Source: Thermovirga sp.
GTDB lineage: Bacteria; Synergistota; Synergistia; Synergistales; Thermovirgaceae
Assembly (NCBI RefSeq): GCF_017656375.1
Contig: NZ_JACDOB010000001.1
Coordinates: forward strand, 1-64,000
Direction of reading: 5' to 3'
DNA length: 64,000 nucleotides
The position numbers were made by a program, and so were the translations under genes. Below the pieces are notes generated by a model, which was not told the DNA's origin, did not search any database, and worked only from the letters and a program-made list of their open reading frames with translations. This document shows, one piece after another, positions 45,170 to 58,355 of the stretch. The stretch's first letter is position 1, and the number at the start of each line of letters is the position of its first letter.

Positions 45170-46489
45170 ATGGTGAAGAAAGAAAAGAATATCATTACAG
45201 GAATAGACATAGGCACTAAAGAAATTAAACTAGTTGTAGCAGAAAAGAAAAAGGATTCCGTAATTATTTTAGATCTAAAGAAAACAGCTTCGAAAGGCAT
45301 AAGAAAGGGAAAGATAGTTGATTCACCTCCTGTAGTTGAGTCAATAAGAAAAGTATTAGATGAGTCTGAGCGGAATTTGGGCTTTCCTATTGAAAGTGCT
45401 TATGTTGCTTATGGAGGGCACTTCATTAAAGAGTATGAGAGAAAGGTTGAGTTGAACCTTGATAGTAAAAGAAGAAGGATTGTTTTTTCTGATATAAAAG
45501 AAGCGATGAATCTAGCCCTAGAAGATGTTGAGAGTATAGGTAATGTGATTCATGCTTTTTCTATTGATTATGGAGTAGATAATGAGTGGGGGATTGAAAA
45601 CCCCATTGGGAGAGAAGCTTCTCTTTTGAAGATGCATTTGTTCGTCCTCGAAGGAAATAAAGAAGAGATAGAGATTGCATCAAGTTGTGCTGAGAGAGCT
45701 GGTCTTAAGGTTAAAGGCATATTTCATAAATCTGTGATTTCTCCTTTTGGATGCTTTTCATCAAAACCTGACGAATTAGTCTTGTATGTTGATTTAGGCG
45801 CGGGGACAACTACTGCAAGCTTACTTAAAGGGACTAAAGTTTTGAACGTAGATATATATCCCGTAGGTGGTAGCCATATAACAAGCGATTTATCATATAT
45901 CCTGAGAATACCTTTAGAAAAATCCGAAGCCCTCAAAAAGATAGTTTCAATAAATGAACCAGAAGAGAATCTAGATGATGAGCTAGAGTTTGAAGTGAAC
46001 GGCGAAAAAATTGTCTGTAGAGTTGGTGATGTAGTAGAAATAATTAAACATAGAATAGAAGAGTTGTTTATAGATTTAATATTAAATGATTTACAGAGGA
46101 AAAAATCTCTTGATTACCCCTCTTTCTCCAAGATTGTGATTTCTGGAGGGGTAAGTAAAATGCAAGGATTACCTACATTTATCCAAAATTTATGTGGAAT
46201 ACCTGTAGAGATAGGTTTGCCCGCCTTAGATATGCCTGAAAACGAAAGAGGGTCGGATAATGTTTCAATAGCCGGCCTAATAAATTATACGATCTTTAAG
46301 GAAGCCCATCCTTATGCAATTTTAAATAGTTGCATTGGCGGAGGAGCGATATCTTTTGATGAAGAGGATCCAGTTTTTAATTCATCAATAGCTGAAAAGG
46401 TGAGAAAAGCGAAACAAAAGAGATTCAAGGGGCAACAGGTAAAAAAGGTTATTGCCACTTTTAAAAAAGTGATAAAAGAGCTTTTTTGA
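45170..46489 (+). CDS. ftsA: Cell division protein FtsA
   Basis: An actin-like ATPase that tethers FtsZ to the membrane. The N-terminal ITGIDIGTKEIKLVVA, the phosphate-2 block LYVDLGAGTTTASLLKG and VISGGVSKMQGLPTFIQ (adenosine motif) are visible. The C-terminus ends with a basic amphipathic stretch that could serve as the membrane-targeting helix. At 439 aa it is slightly longer than many FtsA proteins. It is followed by ftsZ after 17 nt. Confidence 0.93.
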   Translation: MVKKEKNIITGIDIGTKEIKLVVAEKKKDSVIILDLKKTASKGIRKGKIVDSPPVVESIRKVLDESERNLGFPIESAYVAYGGHFIKEYERKVELNLDSKRRRIVFSDIKEAMNLALEDVESIGNVIHAFSIDYGVDNEWGIENPIGREASLLKMHLFVLEGNKEEIEIASSCAERAGLKVKGIFHKSVISPFGCFSSKPDELVLYVDLGAGTTTASLLKGTKVLNVDIYPVGGSHITSDLSYILRIPLEKSEALKKIVSINEPEENLDDELEFEVNGEKIVCRVGDVVEIIKHRIEELFIDLILNDLQRKKSLDYPSFSKIVISGGVSKMQGLPTFIQNLCGIPVEIGLPALDMPENERGSDNVSIAGLINYTIFKEAHPYAILNSCIGGGAISFDEEDPVFNSSIAEKVRKAKQKRFKGQQVKKVIATFKKVIKELF

Positions 46490-46506
46490 GCTTGGAGGGA
46501 TAATAA

Positions 46507-47643
46507 ATGACTGAATTGTTTGAGGTTGAGAGCTCAGAGCGACATGTGAGAGAGGTCATAAAAGTAGTAGGTGTAGGTGGTGGTGGCGGCAATGCTTTAA
46601 ATCACATAGTAAGAAGTGGAGTTAGAGGCGTGGAATTTATAGCAGCCAACACTGATGTTGCTCACCTAGGGCTATCTGAAGCAGATCAAAAAATAGTTCT
46701 TGGCAGAGATTTAACAAAGGGATTGGGGGCTGGTGCAGATCCCGGAATAGGGCTTAAAGCTGCAGAGGAATCAGCAGAAGAGTTAAGAGAATCTCTAAGC
46801 GGCGCTGACATGATTTTCCTCACTGCTGGAATGGGAGGCGGAACGGGTACAGGAGCATCTCCCGTTATAGCTAAAATAGCAAAAGAAACAGGAGCTCTGG
46901 TTGTTGCAGTAGTGACGAAGCCCTTCACGTTTGAGGGCAAAAGGAGAATAGCCCAAGCAGAAGAAGGAATACGCAATTTGAAGGAAGAAGTCGATGCATT
47001 GATTATTATACCTAATGACAAACTTTTGGAGATAACTGACAGGCGAACGACTCTGTCGGAGGCTTTCAAGTTGGCTGACGAGGTTTTACGACAAGCTGTG
47101 CAGGGTGTTACAGATTTGATATTGCGTCCTGGTTTCATAAACGTCGATTTTGCAGACGTCCGGACTGTAATGAAGGATGCTGGTACGGCAATCATGGGTA
47201 TTGGATATGGTGATGGTGAGGATAGAGCGATAATAGCGGCCCAGGCTGCTATAAATAGTCCGTTGATGGATGTTCCCATTGGAGGAGCAAGTGGAATTCT
47301 ATTCAATGTGACGGGCAGCAACAATGTCGGAATTCACGAAATTCAGGAAGCAGCCAGAATAATAACAGAGGCTGCAGATCCTGATGCCACTATAATATGG
47401 GGTCATGTTACAGATCCTGATATTGATGAGGATAAGATTGTAATAACCGTTATTGCTACTGGTTTTCCTGATAACCCTGGCAAAATGAGATCTTTGAAAG
47501 CAGGACAAAGAGCGCTCGGAATAGATTTTGTTGAATCAGAGATAAAACTTGCTAGTGACCAAGAATCAATGAACGTAGGAGAATTGGTATTCGAAAGTGA
47601 ATTGGACATCCCTCCAATTATAAGGAAAAGAAAAAAAAGCTAA
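46507..47643 (+). CDS. ftsZ: Cell division GTPase FtsZ
   Basis: A tubulin-like GTPase that forms the Z ring. [14 protein letters not shown] is the first nucleotide loop and the tubulin signature GGGTGTG is at residues 110-116. The T7-loop ([15 protein letters not shown]) and a conserved C-terminal peptide ([11 protein letters not shown]) that binds FtsA are present. At 378 aa it is full length. It is the last gene of the dcw set here. No terminator is visible and a radical SAM gene follows after 27 nt. Confidence 0.97.
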
Positions 47644-47670
47644 ACAAACATATGGTAAGTGTGGAGGCAT

Positions 47671-49188
47671 ATGAGCAATAGAGGAAAGAGATATTTGATG
47701 AAAAAGACATATAGAGGAATTAGGCAAAACATCTCAACTAAGAAACTCCTAAAGGACGAGCTATGGATGGATAGCCTTAGTGAAGGTGGCGACCCTTTAT
47801 GGGCAATGGCATATCCAGCAAGGTATGCTGTAGGGATGGCAAATTTAGGTTTCCAGTATATTTGCACTTACCTTAAAGAGCTTGGGGTAGCGGTAGAGCG
47901 TTTTTTCGATGATATAGAGGGCGACCGATCCTTGGAAGAGGGCCGCCCTGTAGGGAATTTCCCTATAATTACTTTTTCCGTAGTATATGAACCAGATGTA
48001 AAGAAAATGCTTAACATGCTTAATAGGTGGGGAGTTTCTCCTCTTTGGAAGGACCGAGCAGAAAAGAGAGAGCCGATAATTGGTGTAGGTGGTAGTTTAT
48101 CAGTTATAAATCCTTTGATATTTTCCCATATTGCAGACTTTGTAGTGCTAGGCGATGGGGAGGAAGTAATACCTTATTTGGTAAAAACTGTTCGTGGTTT
48201 TTCTGAAACAGGCGATAGGAATGAGTTTTGGGAATTCATAGCGGAACATCCTTCTATATTTGTACCTCCATTACATTTAGATATGTTGCGCAGAGGAGAG
48301 ACCTTAGAGCGCAAAAAGTCTTTTTGCCTAGATTTGTCTAAAGCTAAAGGGCATGCTTTGTGGGTATCTCCCCACACTGTCTTTCCCGACACTCTTCTGA
48401 TCGAAACACAGAGAGGGTGTTTTAGAGGGTGTCCATATTGTACTATCCCATCATGTTTTGGCAGGCCTAGATTCAGACAGTTAAAGGAAGTAATAGATGA
48501 CATAAGAAAAGCATCAAAATTAGGAATTAGAAGGTTGGGGGTTATAGCTCCAGAATCAGGGGATTACCCTTGGATTAAAGAAGTGTTGAAAGAAATAAGA
48601 GATGCTCGGTTAGAGGTATCCTTCGCTTCGTTGAGAATCGATAATATAAGCGATCTTTTATTGGAGACTTTAGTTGAAGGTGGCCAAAGGCAAATTACCA
48701 TAGCCCCAGAGACAGGAGACCAATATTTCAGAGTGTGTTGTGGAAAAAATTTTACAAATGAGCATATCTTAGATACTTTGCAAAAAGCTCAAAAAATAGG
48801 TCTTAGGAAGGTAAAAATGTATTTTATGTTAGGGTTACCAAACGAGGAGGATAAACATATACTTGAAACCGCTAAACTCATTATGGAAGTTAAGAAAAAC
48901 ACAGGTATGAATGTAGTGGCTTCTGTCGGCTTGTTTATTCCTAAACCTCAAACTCCCTGGGCGAATATGGGATTCTCCCATTCCACTTATAAAAATAAAG
49001 TTTCTTTGCTGAAAAGTGCTATTGCGGGCTTGAAAGGTTCAGAGATAAGAGTTCAAAGTGCAAGAGAGGCGAAAGAGGAGTATAGGATCACATGGGCAAA
49101 TGCTGACGATACGTTAGATTATTTTTATTCGGATGTTGCTCCCAATAGGAATAAAACAGTAGAACAACTTAAAAATTTAGGATTTTAG
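47671..49188 (+). CDS. Radical SAM protein of unknown function (TIGR03960-like)
   Basis: A 505-aa protein with a [4Fe-4S] SAM-binding motif CFRGCPYC (C250, C254, C257). An N-terminal B12-binding-like domain (about residues 40-200) has the pattern typical of TIGR03960-type proteins. The ITIAPETGDQYFR and KMYFMLGLPNEED blocks are common in tRNA/protein-modifying radical SAM enzymes. ATG 47671 follows GTGGAGG at normal distance. Position after ftsZ is not evidence of function. No substrate can be proposed from sequence. Confidence 0.8.
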   Translation: MSNRGKRYLMKKTYRGIRQNISTKKLLKDELWMDSLSEGGDPLWAMAYPARYAVGMANLGFQYICTYLKELGVAVERFFDDIEGDRSLEEGRPVGNFPIITFSVVYEPDVKKMLNMLNRWGVSPLWKDRAEKREPIIGVGGSLSVINPLIFSHIADFVVLGDGEEVIPYLVKTVRGFSETGDRNEFWEFIAEHPSIFVPPLHLDMLRRGETLERKKSFCLDLSKAKGHALWVSPHTVFPDTLLIETQRGCFRGCPYCTIPSCFGRPRFRQLKEVIDDIRKASKLGIRRLGVIAPESGDYPWIKEVLKEIRDARLEVSFASLRIDNISDLLLETLVEGGQRQITIAPETGDQYFRVCCGKNFTNEHILDTLQKAQKIGLRKVKMYFMLGLPNEEDKHILETAKLIMEVKKNTGMNVVASVGLFIPKPQTPWANMGFSHSTYKNKVSLLKSAIAGLKGSEIRVQSAREAKEEYRITWANADDTLDYFYSDVAPNRNKTVEQLKNLGF

Positions 49189-49229
49189 TGGCCATGATAA
49201 AAAATTTAATGGGATAGAGGTGAGAAAAG

Positions 49230-49898
49230 GTGAACATAAGGAGAGGCAGGAATTTCAAAAAAAAGAAGCCGTTTTTTTCCTTTGGGTACTTCTTGCTCCC
49301 TATGCTGGGATTGTTGGCATTAGGATTCCTTATTTTGGGGGTAAGGTTGTTGTTTTTTCAGCCCCACAATGAATACGAGCCTATAGAAAGCTTGGAGGAC
49401 TCTGTAGTTGTAGTAGAGCAACCCAAGGAGAATCCAACGACACAAGAAGCTTTAAATAATGGTCATGAAGAGGGCTATGAAGAAGAGAAGATAATAACAG
49501 CCGTACCTGTCAAAGTGCCAAGTTACAAAGAGACAGAGGATGCAAATTCCAAGCTGGCTCAAAAATCTACAGAAGAAGATGTAACTCGACATGGGCAATC
49601 GCAAAGTAGTGCATCAAATAATGAAGAGAGGGCCAAAGCTGAAACTTTTTACCCATCTACCCAAGGGGCTTTTTGGAGTGTGCAGGTTGGAGCATTCACC
49701 AAGAAAGTATCGGCAGAGAATTTAGCCAGGGAACTGCAAAAAGCAGGTTACGATGTTTTTATCGTTTCAGCTGAAGTAGGAGGGAAGAAGTATCACAGAG
49801 TGAGAGTTAAAGCTGGGGATACCAAACAAGAAGCTCAAAAGGTCGCAGGGAAACTTTCTGCTGCAGGATATCCAACTTTTATAGCTTACGAAAAATAG
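49230..49898 (+). CDS. SPOR-domain membrane protein
   Basis: A 222-aa bitopic protein: a basic N-terminus, a TM helix at about residues 19-43, a charged low-complexity linker (about 45-145) and a C-terminal SPOR domain (about 147-222; FWSVQVGAFTKKVSAENLAR...). SPOR domains bind denuded glycan strands at the septum. The cluster with ftsZ and the dcw genes suggests a division role, such as that of FtsN, but its identity as FtsN is unproven. The GTG start at 49230 is preceded by AGAGGTGAG. Confidence 0.82.
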   Translation: MNIRRGRNFKKKKPFFSFGYFLLPMLGLLALGFLILGVRLLFFQPHNEYEPIESLEDSVVVVEQPKENPTTQEALNNGHEEGYEEEKIITAVPVKVPSYKETEDANSKLAQKSTEEDVTRHGQSQSSASNNEERAKAETFYPSTQGAFWSVQVGAFTKKVSAENLARELQKAGYDVFIVSAEVGGKKYHRVRVKAGDTKQEAQKVAGKLSAAGYPTFIAYEK

Positions 49899-49918
49899 AA
49901 TGAGGGGTTTAACTGTAA

Positions 49919-51154
49919 ATGAGTGGTTTTGTTAAGGAAACTCTTCCAAGAATAGAGACATTGGATGTAATAAAGCAAGCTTTAAATTTCCCATGGGAGG
50001 TCAAAAAGCAGAAAGGGGATCTCCTGGCTGCTGTTGGTAAACGTTTAGCTGAAGATGTGTATGCCAGTGAAAATTATCCTCCTTTTTCAAGGAGTACCCG
50101 GGATGGATACGCGGTAAGGGCCATAGATACACTAGGAGCCTCTCAAACATCTCCTTCTTTCTTGGAAGTAATTGGTGAAATTCAAATGGGGATAATTCCC
50201 GATATAGAAATTACTGAGGGGACCGCAGCCCTTATATATACTGGAGCGGCTCTGCCTAAGGGAGCAGATGCGGTGGTAATGGTTGAGTACACTTCGGCGT
50301 TGCAGAACACCTTAGAAATAAGAAAGCCAGTGCAGAGAGGAGAAAATGTAATCATTAGAGGAGAAGACGTTGAAAAAGGAAAATTGTTATTGAAGAAAAA
50401 CTCCCTATTTGATTTCAGAAGCGCAAGTCTTCTTTCAGGGCTTGGTATAGTACAAGTTAAGGTCATTGATCTTTCTATTGGAGTAATAAGTACTGGAGAC
50501 GAAATTGTGCCTGAAGATACACCTGTTATTGAACCAGGCAAGGTAAGAGACAGCAATTCCACAATGATAGCAGCTTTATTAATGAGAGAAGGTTACGGAG
50601 TCAAAAAGTATGGAATAGCGCGAGATGATATTGAAGATTTGATGAGGATGACTATTAAAGCAATGGAAGAAAATGATGTAGTTATTTTAAGCGGAGGGTC
50701 TTCTGTAAGCTCAAGAGATTTTACGCTGGATGTCATGAACAACATTGGGGAGCCTGGATTGGTTGTGAGAGGTCTTAATATCTCTCCAGGCAAACCTACA
50801 TTAGTAGGGGGTAATAGAGAAAACCAGAAACTTGTCATAGGGTTACCGGGACATCCTTTATCTTGTTCTGTCGTAATGTTGACTTTCGTGTTGCCCTTGC
50901 TCTCCAGTTTGTCAGGAGCCGAGGAAGACTCTATATGGAAGAAAAGAATTTCCCTGCCCGCTGGGAAAGACATCTATGGGAGGAGTGGAGTTGAAGAGTT
51001 TATTCCTGCTGTTGTAGATGAAGAAGTAGTCAACCCATCAATGGCTAAATCGGGATTTGTATCTGCCTTGCAGAGCGCAGATGGTTTGGTGAGACTCCCG
51101 GAGGATAAAGAGACCATAAGGAAGGGCGAGTTTGTGGAGGTATGGCTTTGGTGA
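49919..51154 (+). CDS. moeA: Molybdopterin molybdenumtransferase MoeA (paralog 1)
   Basis: Inserts molybdate (or tungstate) into adenylylated molybdopterin. The SRSTRDGYAVRA block, the MoCF-binding motif ILSGGSSVSSRDFT and GLPGHPLSCSVVM are visible, with N-terminal linker, MPT-binding and C-terminal domains. Its 411 aa are normal. It overlaps the second MoeA gene by 4 nt (GTGA), so the paralogs are translated together. Confidence 0.93.
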   Translation: MSGFVKETLPRIETLDVIKQALNFPWEVKKQKGDLLAAVGKRLAEDVYASENYPPFSRSTRDGYAVRAIDTLGASQTSPSFLEVIGEIQMGIIPDIEITEGTAALIYTGAALPKGADAVVMVEYTSALQNTLEIRKPVQRGENVIIRGEDVEKGKLLLKKNSLFDFRSASLLSGLGIVQVKVIDLSIGVISTGDEIVPEDTPVIEPGKVRDSNSTMIAALLMREGYGVKKYGIARDDIEDLMRMTIKAMEENDVVILSGGSSVSSRDFTLDVMNNIGEPGLVVRGLNISPGKPTLVGGNRENQKLVIGLPGHPLSCSVVMLTFVLPLLSSLSGAEEDSIWKKRISLPAGKDIYGRSGVEEFIPAVVDEEVVNPSMAKSGFVSALQSADGLVRLPEDKETIRKGEFVEVWLW

Positions 51155-53067
51155 AAAAAACATGCAAGGAACATATTAGCCTAAAAGAAATATTGCTGCT
51201 TTTAAAGGAGAATATTGTCCCTTTAAACAAAACAATTTCATTGTCTACAACTGATTCCCATTCCGTATTTGTTGGGAAGATTCTTGCAAAAGATGTTTAT
51301 TCCGAGCGTAATGTTCCTCATTATCCTGCATCTGCTGTGGATGGCTACGCAGTACGAGCATGTGACACTGGTTACGCTAGTCCAGCTACACCAGTTAAAA
51401 TAGAAAAAGGCAACTTTTTATGGGTGAACACAGGTTCTGTCGTTCCTGAAAATTTTGATGCAGTGGTTATGGTTGAAGATACCACAATTGATGAGCATAG
51501 CTTATATGTCTTTAACGCTGTTTCCAAGGGAACAAACGTGCGTCCAGTAGGTGAAGATATAGCTAAGGGGAACATTATTGCAAGGAAAGGAGATTTACTG
51601 TCTATCTTCCATAAAGCCTTATTCGTGGCGGCAGGAGTCAAGGAAATAGAAGTCAAGGCTCCCCCAAGGGCTTGTTTTGTACCTACAGGAAACGAAATTG
51701 TTGATATCAACACACTCAAAGAATTGAAGCAACTTCCACCGGGGAAAATCCCAGAAACCAATTCTGTTCTCCTAGCTGAATTATTTCAAAAATGGGGATA
51801 TTCCCTTGATGTATTACCGTTAACCAAAGATGATCCCAAGGCCTTAGGTGACATCTTAAAGCTTGCGATAAAAGACTATGACTTAGTGCTTATGGGCGCG
51901 GGTACTGCTAAAGGCAAAAGAGATCACAGCGCGAAAGTTCTTTCGGAACAAGGTAAGTTAGTGTTTAGATGGGTAAGAATGAAACCCGGCAGACCCGTCA
52001 TTATGGCAGTTGTCGAGGGCAAGCCTGTGGTTGCTTTACCTGGATTCCCTGTTTCAACGCTGGTTGCGTCTTGGTCCGTGGTGTATCCTCTACTTCAACT
52101 TTTAGAGAAAGGGAAGATAAGTGAAGAGTATTTATCGGAAGCAATAGGAACAAGAGAAGTTATCAAAGTCGAATTAGGGGATCATTATTCGGCTCGACAG
52201 GGCGTTTCAGAATGGCTAAAAGTCCAATGTGCTGAAATAAATGGGCGCAAAATGAGTTGGGTCACGTCTTCTGGTGCTAGTTCAATGATGCCCTTGACGG
52301 AGGCTGATGGCTTTTCGCTTGTGAACGAGGAAGCATTAGAAATCCCAAAGGGAAGTCTTATTGATGTTTGGCTAGTCAGAAAAAACAACTGGGAAAGACG
52401 AGCAGTATATCAAGGGTCAAATGATCCAGGAATTGAACATACAATAGGTTTTATCAGAGCCAAAAATGCGGATTTGATTATAAGGTCTGTAGGGAGCTTG
52501 GGCGGGGTACTTGCCCTTGCGAGAGGGGAGTGCCATATTGCTGCTTGTCATTTGTTAGATCCGAAAACAGGAGAATATAACACTTCGTATATTGAAAAAT
52601 TTGACGTAAAAAAAGAATGGGAACGAGTTGTCCTGTATAAAAGACTACAAGGCCTTATTGTTAGGAGAGGAAACCCCAAAAAAATAAAGGGCATATCAGA
52701 TTTAGCTAAAGAAGTTGTAATAGTGAATAGACAAGCGGGTTCAGGAACTAGGGTGTTATTGGATTATTTACTTGGTAAGGCTAATATTGCTCCTACGGAT
52801 GTTAAGGGATATGAGAATATAGCAGTTACTCATTTTGATGCTGCGTCCAAAGTAGCCTATGGCAGTGCGGATGTGGCACTAGGCATAAAGGCAGTAGCAG
52901 ATGCTCTTGATTTGGATTTTGTGCCGTTAATAGAGGAACCTTTTGAAATTGTAATACCTAAACGACACTTTGAGCATTATGGAGTAAAGGCATTTTTGGA
53001 TTCTATAAATGAGAAGGCTTGGAAAGAAACTATAATTAACCTTGGAGGGTATAGGTTGATACGATGA
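51151..53067 (+). CDS. MoeA paralog 2 fused to a periplasmic-binding-protein-like domain
   Basis: A 638-aa fusion. Residues about 1-400 are a MoeA module (SAVDGYAVRAC, VMVEDTT, LMGAGTAKGKRDHSAKV, ALPGFPVSTLV). Residues about 415-638 resemble the substrate-binding/PBP_like domain found in molybdate-responsive LysR-type regulators and ModE-like proteins (NRQAGSGTRVLLDYLL, VAYGSADVALGIKAVADAL). Its canonical GGSSVSS loop is changed to GAGTAKGKRD. Two MoeA proteins, with one carrying a small-molecule-binding domain, suggest specialisation (for example metal or oxyanion choice). GTG 51151 creates the 4-nt overlap with moeA; ATG 51142 is an alternative but too close to the SD. Confidence 0.88.
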   Translation: MKKTCKEHISLKEILLLLKENIVPLNKTISLSTTDSHSVFVGKILAKDVYSERNVPHYPASAVDGYAVRACDTGYASPATPVKIEKGNFLWVNTGSVVPENFDAVVMVEDTTIDEHSLYVFNAVSKGTNVRPVGEDIAKGNIIARKGDLLSIFHKALFVAAGVKEIEVKAPPRACFVPTGNEIVDINTLKELKQLPPGKIPETNSVLLAELFQKWGYSLDVLPLTKDDPKALGDILKLAIKDYDLVLMGAGTAKGKRDHSAKVLSEQGKLVFRWVRMKPGRPVIMAVVEGKPVVALPGFPVSTLVASWSVVYPLLQLLEKGKISEEYLSEAIGTREVIKVELGDHYSARQGVSEWLKVQCAEINGRKMSWVTSSGASSMMPLTEADGFSLVNEEALEIPKGSLIDVWLVRKNNWERRAVYQGSNDPGIEHTIGFIRAKNADLIIRSVGSLGGVLALARGECHIAACHLLDPKTGEYNTSYIEKFDVKKEWERVVLYKRLQGLIVRRGNPKKIKGISDLAKEVVIVNRQAGSGTRVLLDYLLGKANIAPTDVKGYENIAVTHFDAASKVAYGSADVALGIKAVADALDLDFVPLIEEPFEIVIPKRHFEHYGVKAFLDSINEKAWKETIINLGGYRLIR

Positions 53068-54038
53068 ACGATTCTTACGGAAGAGAATTAAATTACTTGA
53101 GAATTTCGGTAACTGATCGTTGTAACTTCAGGTGTGTATATTGTATGCCTCAAGAAGGAGTAACTTTTATTCCCCACGAGAGAATAATGACTTTTGAGGA
53201 CATAGATTTCCTATTGAACGTTCTTATACCTATGGGGATCAAAAAGGTTAGGTTTACAGGTGGGGAACCTTTGGTTCGAAAAGGGGTTACTGAATTCTTA
53301 AAGAAACTGAAACAAAAAAGACCACAGCTTAAGATAGCGCTTACCACCAATGGTTCGTTGGTCAAATTTTTTGTGGAAGAAATAAGAGATATAGGCCTTT
53401 CTGGGTTGAACATCAGCTTAGATACCATAAATAAGGATAAGTTTAAGGATATAACAAGAGTTAACGAATTTGAAAACGTTGTGGAGGGTATTGATATAAT
53501 TGGAAAGGCACTAAGGGTACCTCTTAAAATAAACACTGTGGTCATAAAAGGTTTTAACGACGATGAGATAGAGGACTTGATAGAGTTTGCGAGAAAGAAA
53601 AATGCAGTTATCCGTTTCATAGAATTTATGCCTTTGGATGAGAGCGTTTGGTCTATGGATAATTTTTTGCCTGCTGATGAGATCCTCTCACGTCTCCCTG
53701 GTGGTTTAGAAGTTTGGGAAAAAGAAGAAACTTCTGCAAGTCATAGCATGAATGGGCCTGCTGTTTACTATAAGAATATATATACTGGCCAGAGAATAGG
53801 CATAATAGCTGCTGTTTCCAATCATTTTTGTGATAAATGTAATAGGCTTAGAGTGACAGCCAATGGAGAGTTGAGAACATGCCTTTTTGCCCCCAAAGGC
53901 AAAAACATATTACCTTTATTGCGAGCTAGAGACAAGGAAACATTGGAAGAAACTATAAGGTCTGAGGTGCGCATGAAGCCTAAGGGGTGGATGTTTTTGG
54001 CTAATACCCAGAAGCATATGTGGCAAATAGGAGGTTAA
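53064..54038 (+). CDS. moaA: GTP 3',8-cyclase MoaA
   Basis: A radical SAM enzyme that starts molybdenum-cofactor synthesis from GTP. The N-terminal [4Fe-4S] motif CNFRCVYC uses C20, C24 and C27. The C-terminal second cluster is CxxC-x13-C (FCDKCNRL..TCLF), and the protein ends with the Gly-Gly tail required for activity. At 324 aa it is complete. It overlaps the previous gene by 4 nt. Confidence 0.97.
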   Translation: MNDSYGRELNYLRISVTDRCNFRCVYCMPQEGVTFIPHERIMTFEDIDFLLNVLIPMGIKKVRFTGGEPLVRKGVTEFLKKLKQKRPQLKIALTTNGSLVKFFVEEIRDIGLSGLNISLDTINKDKFKDITRVNEFENVVEGIDIIGKALRVPLKINTVVIKGFNDDEIEDLIEFARKKNAVIRFIEFMPLDESVWSMDNFLPADEILSRLPGGLEVWEKEETSASHSMNGPAVYYKNIYTGQRIGIIAAVSNHFCDKCNRLRVTANGELRTCLFAPKGKNILPLLRARDKETLEETIRSEVRMKPKGWMFLANTQKHMWQIGG

Positions 54039-54047
54039 AGAAAAATT

Positions 54048-54536
54048 ATGAATAACAAGTTAACCCACTTGGATTCATCTGGTAAACCACGCATGGTGGA
54101 TGTAAGTGGAAAAGATGTAACGCTGAGAGAGGCTATAGCCGAAGGACGAGTGGTGCTTCCTTCGGCTATCTTAGAAACGATAAAAGAGGGGAAAAATAAG
54201 AAAGGCAATGTGCTGTTTATAGCGGAAACAGCGGGTATAATGGCTTGCAAGAAGACCCCTGAGCTCATACCGTTATGTCATTCCATACGATTAGATAGCG
54301 TCTCTGTAAGTTGCGACTTAGATGAGCAAAATTCATGTGTTGTCATTCGCTGCAAGGTTGTTGCGAGGGAAGTTACAGGAGTAGAGATGGAGGCTTTAAC
54401 TGGGGTTTCGATAGCGGCGTTAACCATATATGATATGTGCAAGGGAATAGATAAAGGGATGAAAATAGAGGGTATACGCCTTTTGAAGAAAAGCGGAGGC
54501 AAATCAGGTGTATATTGTGCAGGAGGAGTAGAATGA
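54048..54536 (+). CDS. moaC: Cyclic pyranopterin monophosphate synthase MoaC
   Basis: Converts the MoaA product to cyclic pyranopterin monophosphate. The motifs MVDVSGKDVTLREA, KKTPELIPLCHSI and VEMEALTGVSIAALTIYDMCKGID are all present. The length is 162 aa. It overlaps the following gene by 4 nt (ATGA), which has a strong SD (AGGAGGAG) inside moaC. Confidence 0.97.
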   Translation: MNNKLTHLDSSGKPRMVDVSGKDVTLREAIAEGRVVLPSAILETIKEGKNKKGNVLFIAETAGIMACKKTPELIPLCHSIRLDSVSVSCDLDEQNSCVVIRCKVVAREVTGVEMEALTGVSIAALTIYDMCKGIDKGMKIEGIRLLKKSGGKSGVYCAGGVE

Positions 54537-55375
54537 AAAATAGAATCTTGGGTTTATCGTATGTGAATACCCCATCATCATTACCCGTAGTATTAGTTCA
54601 TGCTCAAAATAATGGAGAAACTTTAGTTAATGGAAGAAAGGCAAAAATATTATTGCTTCCACCTAAGGAAAAGGTTAATACATTTTGTGAAATTGATGAA
54701 TCTGATTTTCTAATAATAAGATTGTCGAAAGGCGTCTTTCCCCTTGAGGAAGGGGATTTTGTTTTTTTTAGTAAAGGAGGCGTTTTGCTTCAGGTGGCTG
54801 AGCAAAACGATATATATAGCATATGTAAGGTAGTTAAAGAAGGTTTTCTAGTCGTTTCAGAACCCTTGGAAAAATGGAAACCCATGAAAGTTGCTGTCCT
54901 TACGGTTAGTGATAAGGGTAGTAGGGGAGAAAGAAAGGATACTTCTGGTCCGGCTCTTAAAGATGCAGTGATAGATATTGGAGGTTTGGTGAAGGATTCT
55001 CGAATTGTTCCAGACGAGCAGGGAAAAATATTAGAAGTCATACGTTCATGGATAAGTAGTGAGTACGAGTTGATTCTAATAACTGGTGGTACGGGGTTAT
55101 CTCCGCGAGATGTAACTCCAGAGAGCCTTTTGAAATTAGAGGGGAAAGAAGTTCCAGGAATAGGAGAATACATGAGATGGAGGACCTCATATTATACCCT
55201 TAGGTCTATATTGTCTAGGTGTATGGCTAAAGCCGTAGGTAAAAGTTTGATTATTGCTTTGCCAGGAAGTAAAAAAGCTGTTTTAGAATGTTTTTATGCT
55301 GTAGCGCCAGTGATAAGACATGCTGTTGAAATTATAACTGGTAAAGCTGGAGAATGCGCGCATAATCACAATTAA
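54533..55375 (+). CDS. mog: Molybdopterin adenylyltransferase MogA with an extra N-terminal domain
   Basis: The C-terminal part (about residues 116-275) is MogA/MoaB-like: VAVLTVSDKGSRGERKDTSGP, ITGGTGLSPRDVTPE and IALPGSKKAVLEC. It adenylates molybdopterin before metal insertion. The first ~114 residues form a separate domain (IIRLSKGVFPLEEGDFVFF) that I cannot identify. It may be a degenerate MOSC-like domain, since MOSC-MogA fusions exist, but I do not see the usual conserved cysteine motif. From ATG 54533 the protein is 280 aa against about 170 for MogA alone. There is no moaD, moaE or mobA in the window. Confidence 0.88.
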   Translation: MKNRILGLSYVNTPSSLPVVLVHAQNNGETLVNGRKAKILLLPPKEKVNTFCEIDESDFLIIRLSKGVFPLEEGDFVFFSKGGVLLQVAEQNDIYSICKVVKEGFLVVSEPLEKWKPMKVAVLTVSDKGSRGERKDTSGPALKDAVIDIGGLVKDSRIVPDEQGKILEVIRSWISSEYELILITGGTGLSPRDVTPESLLKLEGKEVPGIGEYMRWRTSYYTLRSILSRCMAKAVGKSLIIALPGSKKAVLECFYAVAPVIRHAVEIITGKAGECAHNHN

Positions 55376-55402
55376 TTGTGGGAGGGTATCAAAGGGATAG
55401 AG

Positions 55403-56284
55403 ATGGTTACATTGGAGGTTCAAAGATGTATTATCATCACTGGGATGTCGGGCGGCGGGAAATCTACGGTCCTTCATTTGTTAGAAGATAACGGAATGTA
55501 CCCTATAGATAATATTCCTCCTACGTTGTTGCCACAACTGCTGACAGTGTTATCCAAGCACGAAGCTGCAATTAAAAACGGTGTTGCTGCTGTGGTAGAT
55601 GTAAGGGGAGATAACTTACTGAAAGATTTATTCTATGTCATAGATGTTTTGCGAGGAGAGAAAATAGAAATAACACTACTTTTCCTTGAAGCTTCTGACG
55701 AAACCCTTTTGAGTCGTTATGAGATGACAAAACGGAAGCATCCTCTGGCCGTAAATATATCTGTATTAGACGCCATAAAGGAAGAACGAACAAAAATCGC
55801 TCCAGTACTGGAAAGAGCTGATATTATTCTCGATACGTCTAATCTTACGCTTCCTGAACTACGAGAGAAACTTTTTGCATGTTTATCTATCGAAAAAGAA
55901 CCTTTCACTATATTATTATCATCTTTTGGATTTAAGTATGGAATTCCCTTAGATTGTGATTTTCTTTTCGATGTTCGTTTCTTGCCTAACCCGTATTATG
56001 ATGAATTCCTTAGGCCACTTTCGGGTAAAGATGAGAGGGTAAAATCATATCTTATGACTTTCAATGAAGTAGAAGAGTTTACGAATTATATCATTTCAAT
56101 GTTGGAATACGTGTTGCCCTTATACAGAAATACCTGCAAGCAGCAAATAAGTGTGGCTGTAGGATGTACTGGTGGGCGACATCGTTCTGTAGCAATAGTA
56201 GATTTGCTTTGGGAACATTTTAATAAGAGTTACGAGAGAATAATAGTACGTCACAGAGATATTGAAAAAGAGCAGGAGAGTTAA
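55403..56284 (+). CDS. rapZ: RNase adapter protein RapZ / YvcJ-family nucleotide-binding protein
   Basis: A 293-aa P-loop protein. Walker A GMSGGGKS is at residues 14-21 and the conserved C-terminal CTGGRHRSVAIVD lies in the last 30 residues. In Enterobacteria RapZ controls GlmS synthesis via sRNAs; in Gram-positives YvcJ binds nucleotides and influences competence. Which role applies here is unknown. ATG 55403 follows AAAGGGAT at normal distance; TTG 55376 would be 9 codons longer. The rapZ-yvcK-whiA order is widely conserved. Confidence 0.9.
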   Translation: MVTLEVQRCIIITGMSGGGKSTVLHLLEDNGMYPIDNIPPTLLPQLLTVLSKHEAAIKNGVAAVVDVRGDNLLKDLFYVIDVLRGEKIEITLLFLEASDETLLSRYEMTKRKHPLAVNISVLDAIKEERTKIAPVLERADIILDTSNLTLPELREKLFACLSIEKEPFTILLSSFGFKYGIPLDCDFLFDVRFLPNPYYDEFLRPLSGKDERVKSYLMTFNEVEEFTNYIISMLEYVLPLYRNTCKQQISVAVGCTGGRHRSVAIVDLLWEHFNKSYERIIVRHRDIEKEQES

Positions 56285-56286
56285 AA

Positions 56287-57432
56287 ATGAATTGGTGGAC
56301 CACATTTACCCTTGGGATCTTGGCAGGCGGCGTATTAGTGTTTGTGTTGCTTCTTGTTTTCAAAGAGGAGCAGCAATATGAAGAAGAAAAGAGATTCCCA
56401 ATTTCTTCGGTTCGCACAAGGGAGCGCTCTATTATGTCTAAAGCTGTAAGTTTACGTTTGGCTCAGGGGCCTCGTATTGTGGCTGTAGGAGGTGGTACCG
56501 GACTATCCACTTTATTGAGTGGTTTAAAGGCATATACAAAAAATATAACTGCCGTTGTCACAGTGACCGATGAAGGCGGGAGTTCTGGTAGGTTGAGATC
56601 TGAGTGGGGAATGTTGCCTCCAGGAGATATAAGAAATTGTTTGGTTGCCCTTGCTGAGAATCACGATTCTCTTCATAAGATTCTTAATTTTCGTTTTGAC
56701 AGAGGTGAACTAGCTGGCCATAGCTTAGGTAACCTTATCTTATTAGCAGTTACAGAAATGACAGGCGATTTCCGTTTAGCTGTTGAAGAGTTGAATAAAT
56801 TGTTAGCCATGAGGGGACAGGTCCTTCCTGTTACAACTGAGGCAATAACCATTGTGGGAAGGACTAAAGATGGCCAAGCTCTAAGAGGGGAGTTGGAAAT
56901 TGCGAAAAGGGGTTATCAACTAGATACAATATGGATAGAACCTAGAGGGGCAAAAGCAGCTAAGGGAGTTTTGGAAGCTATCGAAAACGCTGATTTGATA
57001 GTATTAGGTCCAGGTAGCTTGTTTACCAGCGTGCTTCCCAACCTTTTGATAGAGGATGTTGCAGCAAGAATGAGGTTAAACAACATTGCTCCTAAAGTTT
57101 ATGTGGCCAACTTGATGACTCAGCCAGGCGAAACTGATGGTCTTGATATACTTGCTCATTTAAAGTGGGTAGAGAAGACTTTAGGAATGTTACCTGAGCA
57201 TGTGGTGGCAAATGAAGGGGAAATACCCAATAATCATTTGTTAGAATATAGAAAGAAAGGGGCGAGCCCACTTCATATTGATAAATCTCAACTAAACTTT
57301 CTTAAAAGAAAGGGAGTTAATGTAATCAGGGGAGATTTTGTCCTTATCTCCGAAGAAGGAACCATAAGGCATCATTCTCAAAAACTTGCAGAGACTATAA
57401 TGAAGATAGCGCGAGAGGTACGTGAAAGTTAA
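56287..57432 (+). CDS. yvcK: YvcK/CofD-family gluconeogenesis factor with an N-terminal membrane anchor
   Basis: A 381-aa protein. The CofD-like fold begins at RIVAVGGGTGLSTLLSGLK (about residue 61), followed by VTDEGGSSGRLR and the PPGDIRNCLVAL segment. YvcK binds UDP-GlcNAc and supports growth on gluconeogenic carbon and cell-wall synthesis. Unlike the soluble ~320-aa proteins of Bacillus, this one has a hydrophobic helix at about residues 6-25 followed by a charged linker, predicting a membrane anchor. Its start follows the rapZ stop by 2 nt. Confidence 0.9.
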   Translation: MNWWTTFTLGILAGGVLVFVLLLVFKEEQQYEEEKRFPISSVRTRERSIMSKAVSLRLAQGPRIVAVGGGTGLSTLLSGLKAYTKNITAVVTVTDEGGSSGRLRSEWGMLPPGDIRNCLVALAENHDSLHKILNFRFDRGELAGHSLGNLILLAVTEMTGDFRLAVEELNKLLAMRGQVLPVTTEAITIVGRTKDGQALRGELEIAKRGYQLDTIWIEPRGAKAAKGVLEAIENADLIVLGPGSLFTSVLPNLLIEDVAARMRLNNIAPKVYVANLMTQPGETDGLDILAHLKWVEKTLGMLPEHVVANEGEIPNNHLLEYRKKGASPLHIDKSQLNFLKRKGVNVIRGDFVLISEEGTIRHHSQKLAETIMKIAREVRES

Positions 57433-57434
57433 AT

Positions 57435-58355
57435 ATGGAAAAGATCAAAGATATTTTATGGGATGAATGGGTGCAAAGACCCACAGGACATAAAGATGCC
57501 ACTGAAGAAATAGCTGGAATCATTTCCGGCATGAAAAGCAGAGAAAATGGGCAGCACGTAATATGCCAAAGTGGCAGGTTGTGGGTTTTTAGAAGATTGA
57601 GGAAAATATGGAATCTCTCGTGTTGGACAGATATTGTGGATCTTTCTTCTATTCTCATAATACCTAAGGATTTTAAAGGGAAAGTGCTACTTCAATTTCC
57701 CTCTGTACTGTATAAAAAAATTTTAGGACTAAAAAGTTCTAAAAAAGCAAACATTTCATGGACATGGCTTGGTGGTTTCCTGGGAGCTTGCGCTTCTTTT
57801 TACCTGCCAAAGACAGGTTACTACTTGACTTTTAGGGGGCACCACGGTCAGCTGGGAGATCATATCGACTTGGTGTATCGTTTTCTTTTAAACAATGGAT
57901 TTCCAGCAAAGATACGGCATAAGACAGATGTAAGTGAGGTAATAATAAGAGACCAACAAAGTATAGTGGCCCTATTAGTGAAGGTGAATTTACACAGAAC
58001 CTCGCTGGAACTAGAGCAAAAAGCACTTTTAAGAGCTTTGAGGGATACGGCTAATAAGATAGTTAATTGTGATGCTGCTAATATAAAAAAAACATTGGAA
58101 GCAGCACGGAAGCAGATCGAAATAGCAAATGATATTTTGGCAATAAAGAAGATCGTTAACCTGCCTGATTCATACGTAGATTTGGCTGAGAAGAGAATAG
58201 CTTATCCTACGGCAACATTGAAAGAGTTGGGGACGCTTTTAGAGAGACCTGTGAGCAAAAGTACGATAGAATATAGATGGAAGAAGATGGAAAAAATTTT
58301 AATGACAGGACCTAAAAAGATTGCGAAGGGGGATGGTCAAAATGTATTACGGTAA
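57435..58355 (+). CDS. whiA: DNA-binding regulator WhiA
   Basis: A 306-aa protein with an N-terminal LAGLIDADG-homing-endonuclease-like domain (FLGACASFYLPKTGYYLTFRG) and a C-terminal WhiA helix-turn-helix (about residues 215-300, ending TLKELGTLLERPVSKSTIEYR). In Streptomyces it controls sporulation and in Bacillus it links division and chromosome segregation to metabolism. It is best known from monoderms but also occurs in Thermotoga. It overlaps the following debranching-enzyme gene. Confidence 0.9.
   Translation: MEKIKDILWDEWVQRPTGHKDATEEIAGIISGMKSRENGQHVICQSGRLWVFRRLRKIWNLSCWTDIVDLSSILIIPKDFKGKVLLQFPSVLYKKILGLKSSKKANISWTWLGGFLGACASFYLPKTGYYLTFRGHHGQLGDHIDLVYRFLLNNGFPAKIRHKTDVSEVIIRDQQSIVALLVKVNLHRTSLELEQKALLRALRDTANKIVNCDAANIKKTLEAARKQIEIANDILAIKKIVNLPDSYVDLAEKRIAYPTATLKELGTLLERPVSKSTIEYRWKKMEKILMTGPKKIAKGDGQNVLR

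Follow-up and report, generated by a model that had tools for sequence, protein, structure and literature searches.

Many bacteria and archaea keep two copies of MoeA; why they do so has been described, for bacteria, as an open question (PMC10102598; this and the other papers are cited here from excerpts of their texts), and the usual answer is that one copy serves molybdenum and the other tungsten. The question is raised again by the first 64,000 nucleotides of contig NZ_JACDOB010000001.1 of Thermovirga sp. (Synergistota), the stretch analysed in this work and called the window, in which a plain moeA gene is followed by a second moeA fused to a periplasmic binding protein (PBP)-like domain. 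We give about an even chance to a different answer, in which the two adjacent MoeA proteins would form one cooperative, tungsten-leaning metal insertase with the fusion as its oxyanion-handling subunit. The reciprocal arginine split described below would predict one shared enzyme, account for the need of Desulfovibrio for both genes and point to the residues to be swapped, and it would bear on the production of tungsten enzymes in new hosts.

The Fusion Gene and Its Partner

The initial annotation of the window had described an open reading frame (ORF) coupled to an upstream moeA by a GTGA overlap, with an altered catalytic loop and a C-terminal PBP-like domain of about 220 amino acids. All these features were verified: the fusion ORF occupies positions 51151-53067, its GTG (51151-51153) lying over the TGA (51152-51154) of the plain moeA; the loop reads GAGTAKGKRD in the fusion versus GGSSVSSRD in the partner; and the C-terminal domain matches Pfam PBP_like (PF12727) with 206.9 bits versus a cut-off of 27 (E 2.1e-61). 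The spacing of the upstream GGAGG, 10 bases from this GTG and 1 base from an alternative ATG at 51142, makes GTG the better start as judged by eye. MoeA_N (119.9 bits, E 1.1e-34) and MoCF_biosynth (79.8 bits, E 2.1e-22) also exceeded their Pfam cut-offs in the fusion, while MoeA_C reached 16.7 bits, below the cut-off of 22.1 that the partner passes with 43.6. The whole-protein model NF011068 (PRK14498) gave 528.8 bits for the fusion, just below its curated cut-off of 534.

The gene is of a known fusion type, a molybdenum/tungsten-cofactor metal-insertion enzyme joined to an oxyanion-binding domain. Cloacibacillus porcorum and Thermanaerovibrio acidaminovorans are Synergistota species. Both are included in the small bacterial clades of Megrian et al. 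2025, who reported MoeA-PBP in archaea and a few bacteria with contiguous copies, described a groove that runs from the binding site of the PBP domain to that of MoeA, and proposed tungsten specificity (PMC11733289). Proteins of this kind (MoeA1 of that study, NF011068/PRK14498, DVU0951 of Desulfovibrio vulgaris) share a MoeA core with a C-terminal PF12727 and are usually contiguous with a plain MoeA, as here, but not in D. vulgaris, according to the locus tags. The architecture, the adjacent pair, the tungsten idea and the hypothesis of metal sensing or selection, also raised by the initial annotation, are already published. No precedent for the residue split, for the A-K-G loop of Synergistota or for the ftsAZ context was found in the literature searched, many subscription papers lying outside that search.

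Active-Site Residues in the Synergistota Pairs

Residues are numbered as in E. coli, after alignment of 275 MoeA cores to which Cnx1E and the named plasmid-borne pairs were later added. ORFs covering fewer than 370 core-model columns and identical cores were excluded from the counts and near-identical sequences were retained, the counts being of sequences and not of independent events. The 99 pairs of the pair set (63 Synergistota, 11 Chloroflexota, 25 Thermoproteota) leave without a partner 7 of the 70 Synergistota, 6 of the 17 Chloroflexota and 1 of the 26 Thermoproteota fusions. Of the seven, six have beside them a plain ORF that is truncated or disrupted, and for L036 the partner had been dropped as an exact copy of another; four of the six from Chloroflexota (L173, L174, L175, L181) had been retrieved without a neighbouring partner.

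Position 254 in the loop was Ala in 70/70 Synergistota fusions versus Ser in 63/63 partners, and K255 beside it was found in every fusion. Position 282, equivalent to K297 of Cnx1E, was Arg in 70/70 fusions and Lys in 63/63 partners, position 350 was basic (Arg or Lys) in all fusions and Pro or Ala in all partners, and position 371 was Ala in 54/70 fusions and Ser in 63/63 partners. Lys or Arg at position 279 was present in 70/70 fusions and in only 10 of the 63 partners, being lost in 53. Since A254, K255 and D259 recur in 70/70 non-identical fusion cores, the altered loop is not due to chance; and since S254 is kept, in a loop S-A-G, by all 17 Chloroflexota and all 26 Thermoproteota fusions, A254/K255 is, within this sample, characteristic of the Synergistota, whose A-K-G loop is accompanied by Arg at the K297 position. 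Beyond what the initial annotation had noticed, the upstream partner in the window is altered too, with S279, K282, V345 and P350 versus K279, R282, V345 and K350 in the fusion.

Alignment with Cnx1E placed D228, D259, K279, G281 and S303 of the window fusion at D242, D274, K294, G296 and S328, and A254, V345 and A371 at S269, R369 and S400, which are absent from it. K294 and R369 of Cnx1E, named as initial molybdate-binding residues (PMC13262936), align with K279 and R345 of E. coli. An assignment of Cnx1E R369 to R350 was dropped on this alignment, and the argument was recast to cover R345 as well as R350. A role has also been ascribed to R350 of E. coli itself. As judged from the aligned residues, neither Synergistota paralog retains the whole canonical site, and this uneven loss, with different parts of one metal-binding site missing from each copy, suggests that the copies work together. 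In such an enzyme the cytoplasmic PBP domain would collect tungstate or molybdate and pass the anion to the MoeA site, and both MoeA proteins would jointly carry out one conversion of molybdopterin-adenosine monophosphate (MPT-AMP) to metal-pterin, not one per metal. The fusion would provide K279, R282 and the basic residue 350, and the partner the loop Ser, K282 and S371. A physical complex of the two proteins, presumably a heterodimer, is predicted in this scheme, as are the PBP ligand and its hand-over to the MoeA site.

The altered loop and the PBP-like domain together had also led the initial annotation to consider a regulatory instead of a catalytic fusion. D59, T100, E188, D228 and D259 are retained in 70/70 Synergistota fusions and 63/63 partners, and the window fusion keeps in addition K279 and a basic residue 350. 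A purely regulatory fusion is not favoured by these residues, nor by the genome assembly (99.2% complete), in which this pair makes up the full set of MoeA_N genes for six AFOR_N matches. That only one paralog is catalytic and is activated or regulated by the other, a pseudo-enzyme, with the PBP domain as metal sensor, seems unlikely to us, given the five residues retained by both Synergistota copies; pointing towards it are the partners in Methylobacterium, Sinorhizobium and Mesorhizobium, which lack T100, E188, D228, S254 and S303 (in an unsure alignment) and still stand beside the fusion, and the occurrence of PF12727 behind DNA-binding-like parts too.

The Arginine Split in Other Lineages

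The states of R345 and R350 are written here as x/y, where R or K means kept and a dash lost. In the Synergistota pairs the fusion was -/R in 55/63 and R/R in 8/63 and the partner -/- in 63/63; in the window the fusion is V/K and its partner V/P. In the Chloroflexota a -/R fusion was accompanied by an R/- partner in 10 of 11 pairs and by an R/R partner in one. The direction was opposite in the Thermoproteota, with an R/- fusion and a -/R partner in 19/25 pairs and a -/- fusion in six. The Cetobacterium pair combined a -/R fusion with a K/- partner, and two Betaproteobacteria an R/- fusion with an R/R partner. Among five Thermoproteota pairs of two plain MoeA proteins, two were split as R/- and -/R and three consisted of R/- and R/R. 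Lone MoeA proteins of Chloroflexota, defined by one match to the MoeA alignment at E 1e-15 (2 of the 14 genomes being MoeA_N-checked too), were R/R in 11 cases, R/- in two and -/R in one, and those of Thermoproteota, each the sole MoeA_N of its genome, were R/- in 5/5.

Conserved columns, 125 in number, were taken from 34 MoeA proteins without an adjacent fusion (some of their genomes holding other MoeA proteins), and screening them gave 11 reciprocal columns in Synergistota, 15 in Chloroflexota and 6 in Thermoproteota; only R350 and V255 were reciprocal in all three. In each of the three lineages most partners still have V255 and the fusion does not, a pattern that, at the level of aligned residues, points rather to common descent or to a change linked to the PBP domain. 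A stronger form of the cooperative reading may be put forward tentatively: the insertase would be obligately heteromeric, each chain contributing part of the oxyanion site, with Chloroflexota and Thermoproteota splitting R345/R350 oppositely, the PBP domain fused to whichever chain at least two times, and the division carried furthest in Synergistota, where the fusion has A254/K255 and the partner is without K279 and R350. The rule of exactly one R350 per pair was rejected as proof of a heterodimer, R350 being missing from 5/5 Thermoproteota and 2/14 Chloroflexota lone MoeA proteins.

Tungsten, Molybdenum and Experimental Precedents

Six AFOR_N matches were found in the Thermovirga genome. Of its three SBP_bac_11 matches above the cut-off, one was best with a phosphonate receptor (below the cut-off of that model), one with TupA and one was PstS-like by eye; no ModA was recognised among them. 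The TupA-like receptor scored 370.8 bits, below the NCBIfam cut-off of 400, and a permease-like ORF follows it. The cofactor produced in Thermovirga would most likely be mainly the tungsten form, a lean to which R282, shared by 70/70 fusions, also contributes.

According to a published proposal the two proteins are independent homodimeric insertases, of which the PBP fusion serves tungsten and the plain MoeA molybdenum. We regard it as rather unlikely, although MoeA-PBP occurs together with TupA in 86% of cases (PMC11733289) and although the residue at position 282, Arg in every Synergistota fusion and Lys in every partner, corresponds to R291 of Methylorubrum MoeA1, which favours tungsten (PMC13197769). 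In Methylorubrum tungstate is inserted by MoeA1 together with MobB, and two MoeA proteins split tungsten and molybdenum between them (PMC13197769), though MoeA1 is probably not a PBP fusion. Methylorubrum extorquens MoeA1 resembles the Synergistota fusion in the Arg at the Cnx1E K297 position and in the tungsten use predicted for the latter, and differs in an Ala at the S303 position and in the need for MobB (PMC13197769). In D. vulgaris, by contrast, the fusion DVU0951 (PF12727) and the plain DVU2990 were both inferred to be necessary for the tungsten cofactor of aldehyde oxidoreductase (AOR), with a cofitness of 0.85, and this mutant study argues against a molybdenum/tungsten split (PMC10102598). 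The plain Synergistota partner, without R345 and R350 in 63/63 cases and mostly without K279, also seems less suited to binding molybdate by itself, and the absence of a recognised ModA from the SBP_bac_11 matches points the same way. In Pyrococcus furiosus the radioactive peaks of tungsten enzymes coincide with MoeA1, MoeA2 and MoaB (PMC10221389).

A cooperative insertase fits the need of D. vulgaris for both genes; as a general rule it does not fit the results in Methylorubrum, where deletions of moeA3 and moeA5 barely alter the activity of the tungsten formate dehydrogenase (FDH) and both genes are dispensable (PMC13197769). Judging by Microvirga, where a degenerate partner, the fusion, mobB and a MoeA gene follow one another, moeA3 and moeA5 probably make up the pair of PBP fusion and degenerate MoeA, the words "PBP" and "periplasmic" being absent from the main text of PMC13197769; if so, the pair is probably not always the tungsten insertase. 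Further points weigh on the same side. A conserved active site was seen in both archaeal copies (PMC11733289), and the fusion retains S303, unlike the Ala of the tungsten-type Methylorubrum enzyme. On the alignment, both Synergistota paralogs are without R345 in 55/63 pairs, so that no combined site is fully canonical; the loss of R350 needs no partner, as the lone MoeA proteins of Thermoproteota (5/5) and Chloroflexota (2/14) illustrate; and reciprocal change reaches columns outside the oxyanion site. Finally, one Synergistota genome (G040; L271 6581-8620) holds an intact plain moeA next to a decayed fusion.

The PBP-Like Domain

The substrate-binding fold claimed by the initial annotation is supported by PF12727, by a confident model and by its matches to receptors. 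AlphaFold2 modelled the domain from 22 sequences with a predicted local distance difference test score (pLDDT) of 92.6 and a predicted template modelling score (pTM) of 0.87; the full-length fusion reached a pLDDT of 91.7, with residues 1-3 and loop 254-256 below 50. When the 1000 best Foldseek chains were compared with VIA-align, the top match was a phosphate receptor (Z 19.9), and ModA (Z 18.9), tungstate-loaded ModA (Z 18.5) and Methanosarcina acetivorans ModA/WtpA with tungstate (Z 17.6) also matched. ModA, WtpA and phosphate receptors are transport receptors; they share the PBP fold with the window domain at Z 17-20, whereas the latter would be part of a cytoplasmic fusion and has no clear sequence link to TupA or ModA in hhalign (P 0.03 and 0.46, respectively). 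As the LysR-type effector domain NtcB also reaches Z 17.1, the modelled fold alone does not fix the identity of the ligand; Pfam LysR_substrate scored 16.3 bits on the fusion, below its cut-off of 28.

Of the stand-alone PF12727 proteins examined (n=20; L222-L241), one belongs to a Hippea relative and the others to Thermoproteota and Chloroflexota. Their ligand domain is the same as that of the fusion; their N-terminal parts differ from that of the fusion, are of several unlike kinds and are DNA-binding-like by eye; the domain has seemingly been recruited repeatedly. In an unrooted 48-row tree the PBP domains of 28 fusions did not form one clade separate from the 20 stand-alone proteins (approximately unbiased (AU) test, p 0.0002), which allows repeated capture by MoeA, or the reverse. 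Another PF12727 match in the Thermovirga genome (L002, 58.2 bits) was set aside as PstS-like by eye.

Distribution and Phylogeny

The full fusion was present in 38/61 Synergistota genomes, that of the window included, and in 38/38 of these a plain moeA lay directly upstream, its ORF being cut or broken in three (L005, L014, L029). Among 19 fusion-less Synergistota genomes at least 90% complete, a sample that leaves out G032, G038 and G039, 16 were without any MoeA_N and three had one. In most cases the two genes are present or absent together. In the Thermoproteota of the pair set the partner was upstream on the same strand in 19/25 cases and on the other strand in 6/25, and no archaeal pair on a plasmid was seen among the 60 records listed out of 87. 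A first scan of genome contigs with a single protein as query matched no relative.

After a first-look tree by FastTree, a 68-row tree of the MoeA cores grouped the fusions and partners of Synergistota, Chloroflexota and Cetobacterium next to each other (93/94), with the Thermoproteota and proteobacterial fusions standing apart. The tree and alignment set was drawn up without Desulfovibrio and without Methanomicrobiales, the latter being the sister group in PMC11733289. A single clade of all fusions gave AU p 0.013 in the 68 rows and 0.086 in 52 rows with more loop columns removed, and a grouping of archaeal fusions with bacterial partners gave p 0.41 and 0.095 in the two samples. With p 0.013 in one sample versus 0.086 in the other, the idea that bacterial and archaeal fusions are not orthologous was not upheld.

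In alphaproteobacteria a strongly decayed MoeA still lies beside the fusion (L214 2739-3830, L219 2696-3823, L221 2702-3826). These partners have lost T100, E188, D228, S254 and S303 in an unsure alignment, and FDH or ABC-transporter genes are near.

Gene Surroundings

The coordinates of the pair and of the cofactor genes that follow it are given in Table 1. For the approximately 120-residue N-terminal part of the MoaB/Mog-type protein (54515-54870) Pfam gave no match even at E 1.

Table 1. Positions of the moeA pair, its motifs and the adjoining cofactor genes in the window.
Feature	Positions	Strand	Basis
Plain moeA paralog, 411 aa, partner of the fusion	49919..51154	+	Pfam MoeA_N, MoCF_biosynth and MoeA_C all above cut-off; S254, K282 (kept), S279, V345, P350
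GGAGG, putative, ribosome-binding-site-like, 5' of the fusion	51136..51140	+	Read by eye from the sequence
GTGA start/stop overlap of both moeA genes	51151..51154	+	Sequence
Gene of the moeA-PBP fusion; product of 638 aa with the GTG start, 641 aa with ATG 51142	51151..53067	+	ORF, Pfam, NCBIfam
Altered catalytic loop GAGTAKGKRD, residues 249-258	51895..51924	+	Sequence; A254/K255 in 70/70 Synergistota fusions
KPGRP motif at residues 278-282, with K279 retained and R in place of K282 (equivalent to Cnx1E K297)	51982..51996	+	Alignment
PF12727 PBP_like domain, residues 417-638	52399..53064	+	Pfam match 444-622 of the 641-aa form; AlphaFold2; fold matches
moaA (GTP 3',8-cyclase), overlapping the fusion stop	53064..54038	+	TIGR02666, 347.8 bits, cut-off 284.05
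moaC	54048..54536	+	TIGR00581 and NF006870 (PRK09364) above cut-off
MoaB/Mog-type MoCF protein, N-terminal part of ~120 aa without Pfam match	54515..55375	+	Pfam, NCBIfam

The pair lies in a block (45170-58355) of ftsA, ftsZ, SPOR, moeA, moeA-PBP, moaA, moaC, moaB, rapZ, yvcK and whiA, an order found in 12/12 Synergistota regions, one of which (G040) has the fusion only as a fragment; a radical S-adenosylmethionine (SAM) gene stands between ftsZ and SPOR in 9/12. The names ftsA, ftsZ, rapZ, yvcK and whiA in the window are putative, assigned by reading the sequence. Molybdenum/tungsten genes inside an ftsAZ block draw attention because actinobacterial Glp, a MoeA relative, works with FtsZ (PMC11733289). 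From the ftsA-ftsZ-SPOR and rapZ-yvcK-whiA setting the plain paralog could be taken for a cell-division protein like Glp, in keeping with the shared order and with the retention of the plain gene in G040 despite its decayed fusion. This is very improbable, as the Glp model NF045515 scores 237 bits on the partner and 176.2 on the fusion against a cut-off of 475, and the 16/19 fusion-less genomes without MoeA_N have no plain gene either. On a Cetobacterium somerae plasmid (L213 1-5815) AOR, a hypothetical gene, fdhD, tatA, tatC, moeA and moeA-PBP form one gene run.

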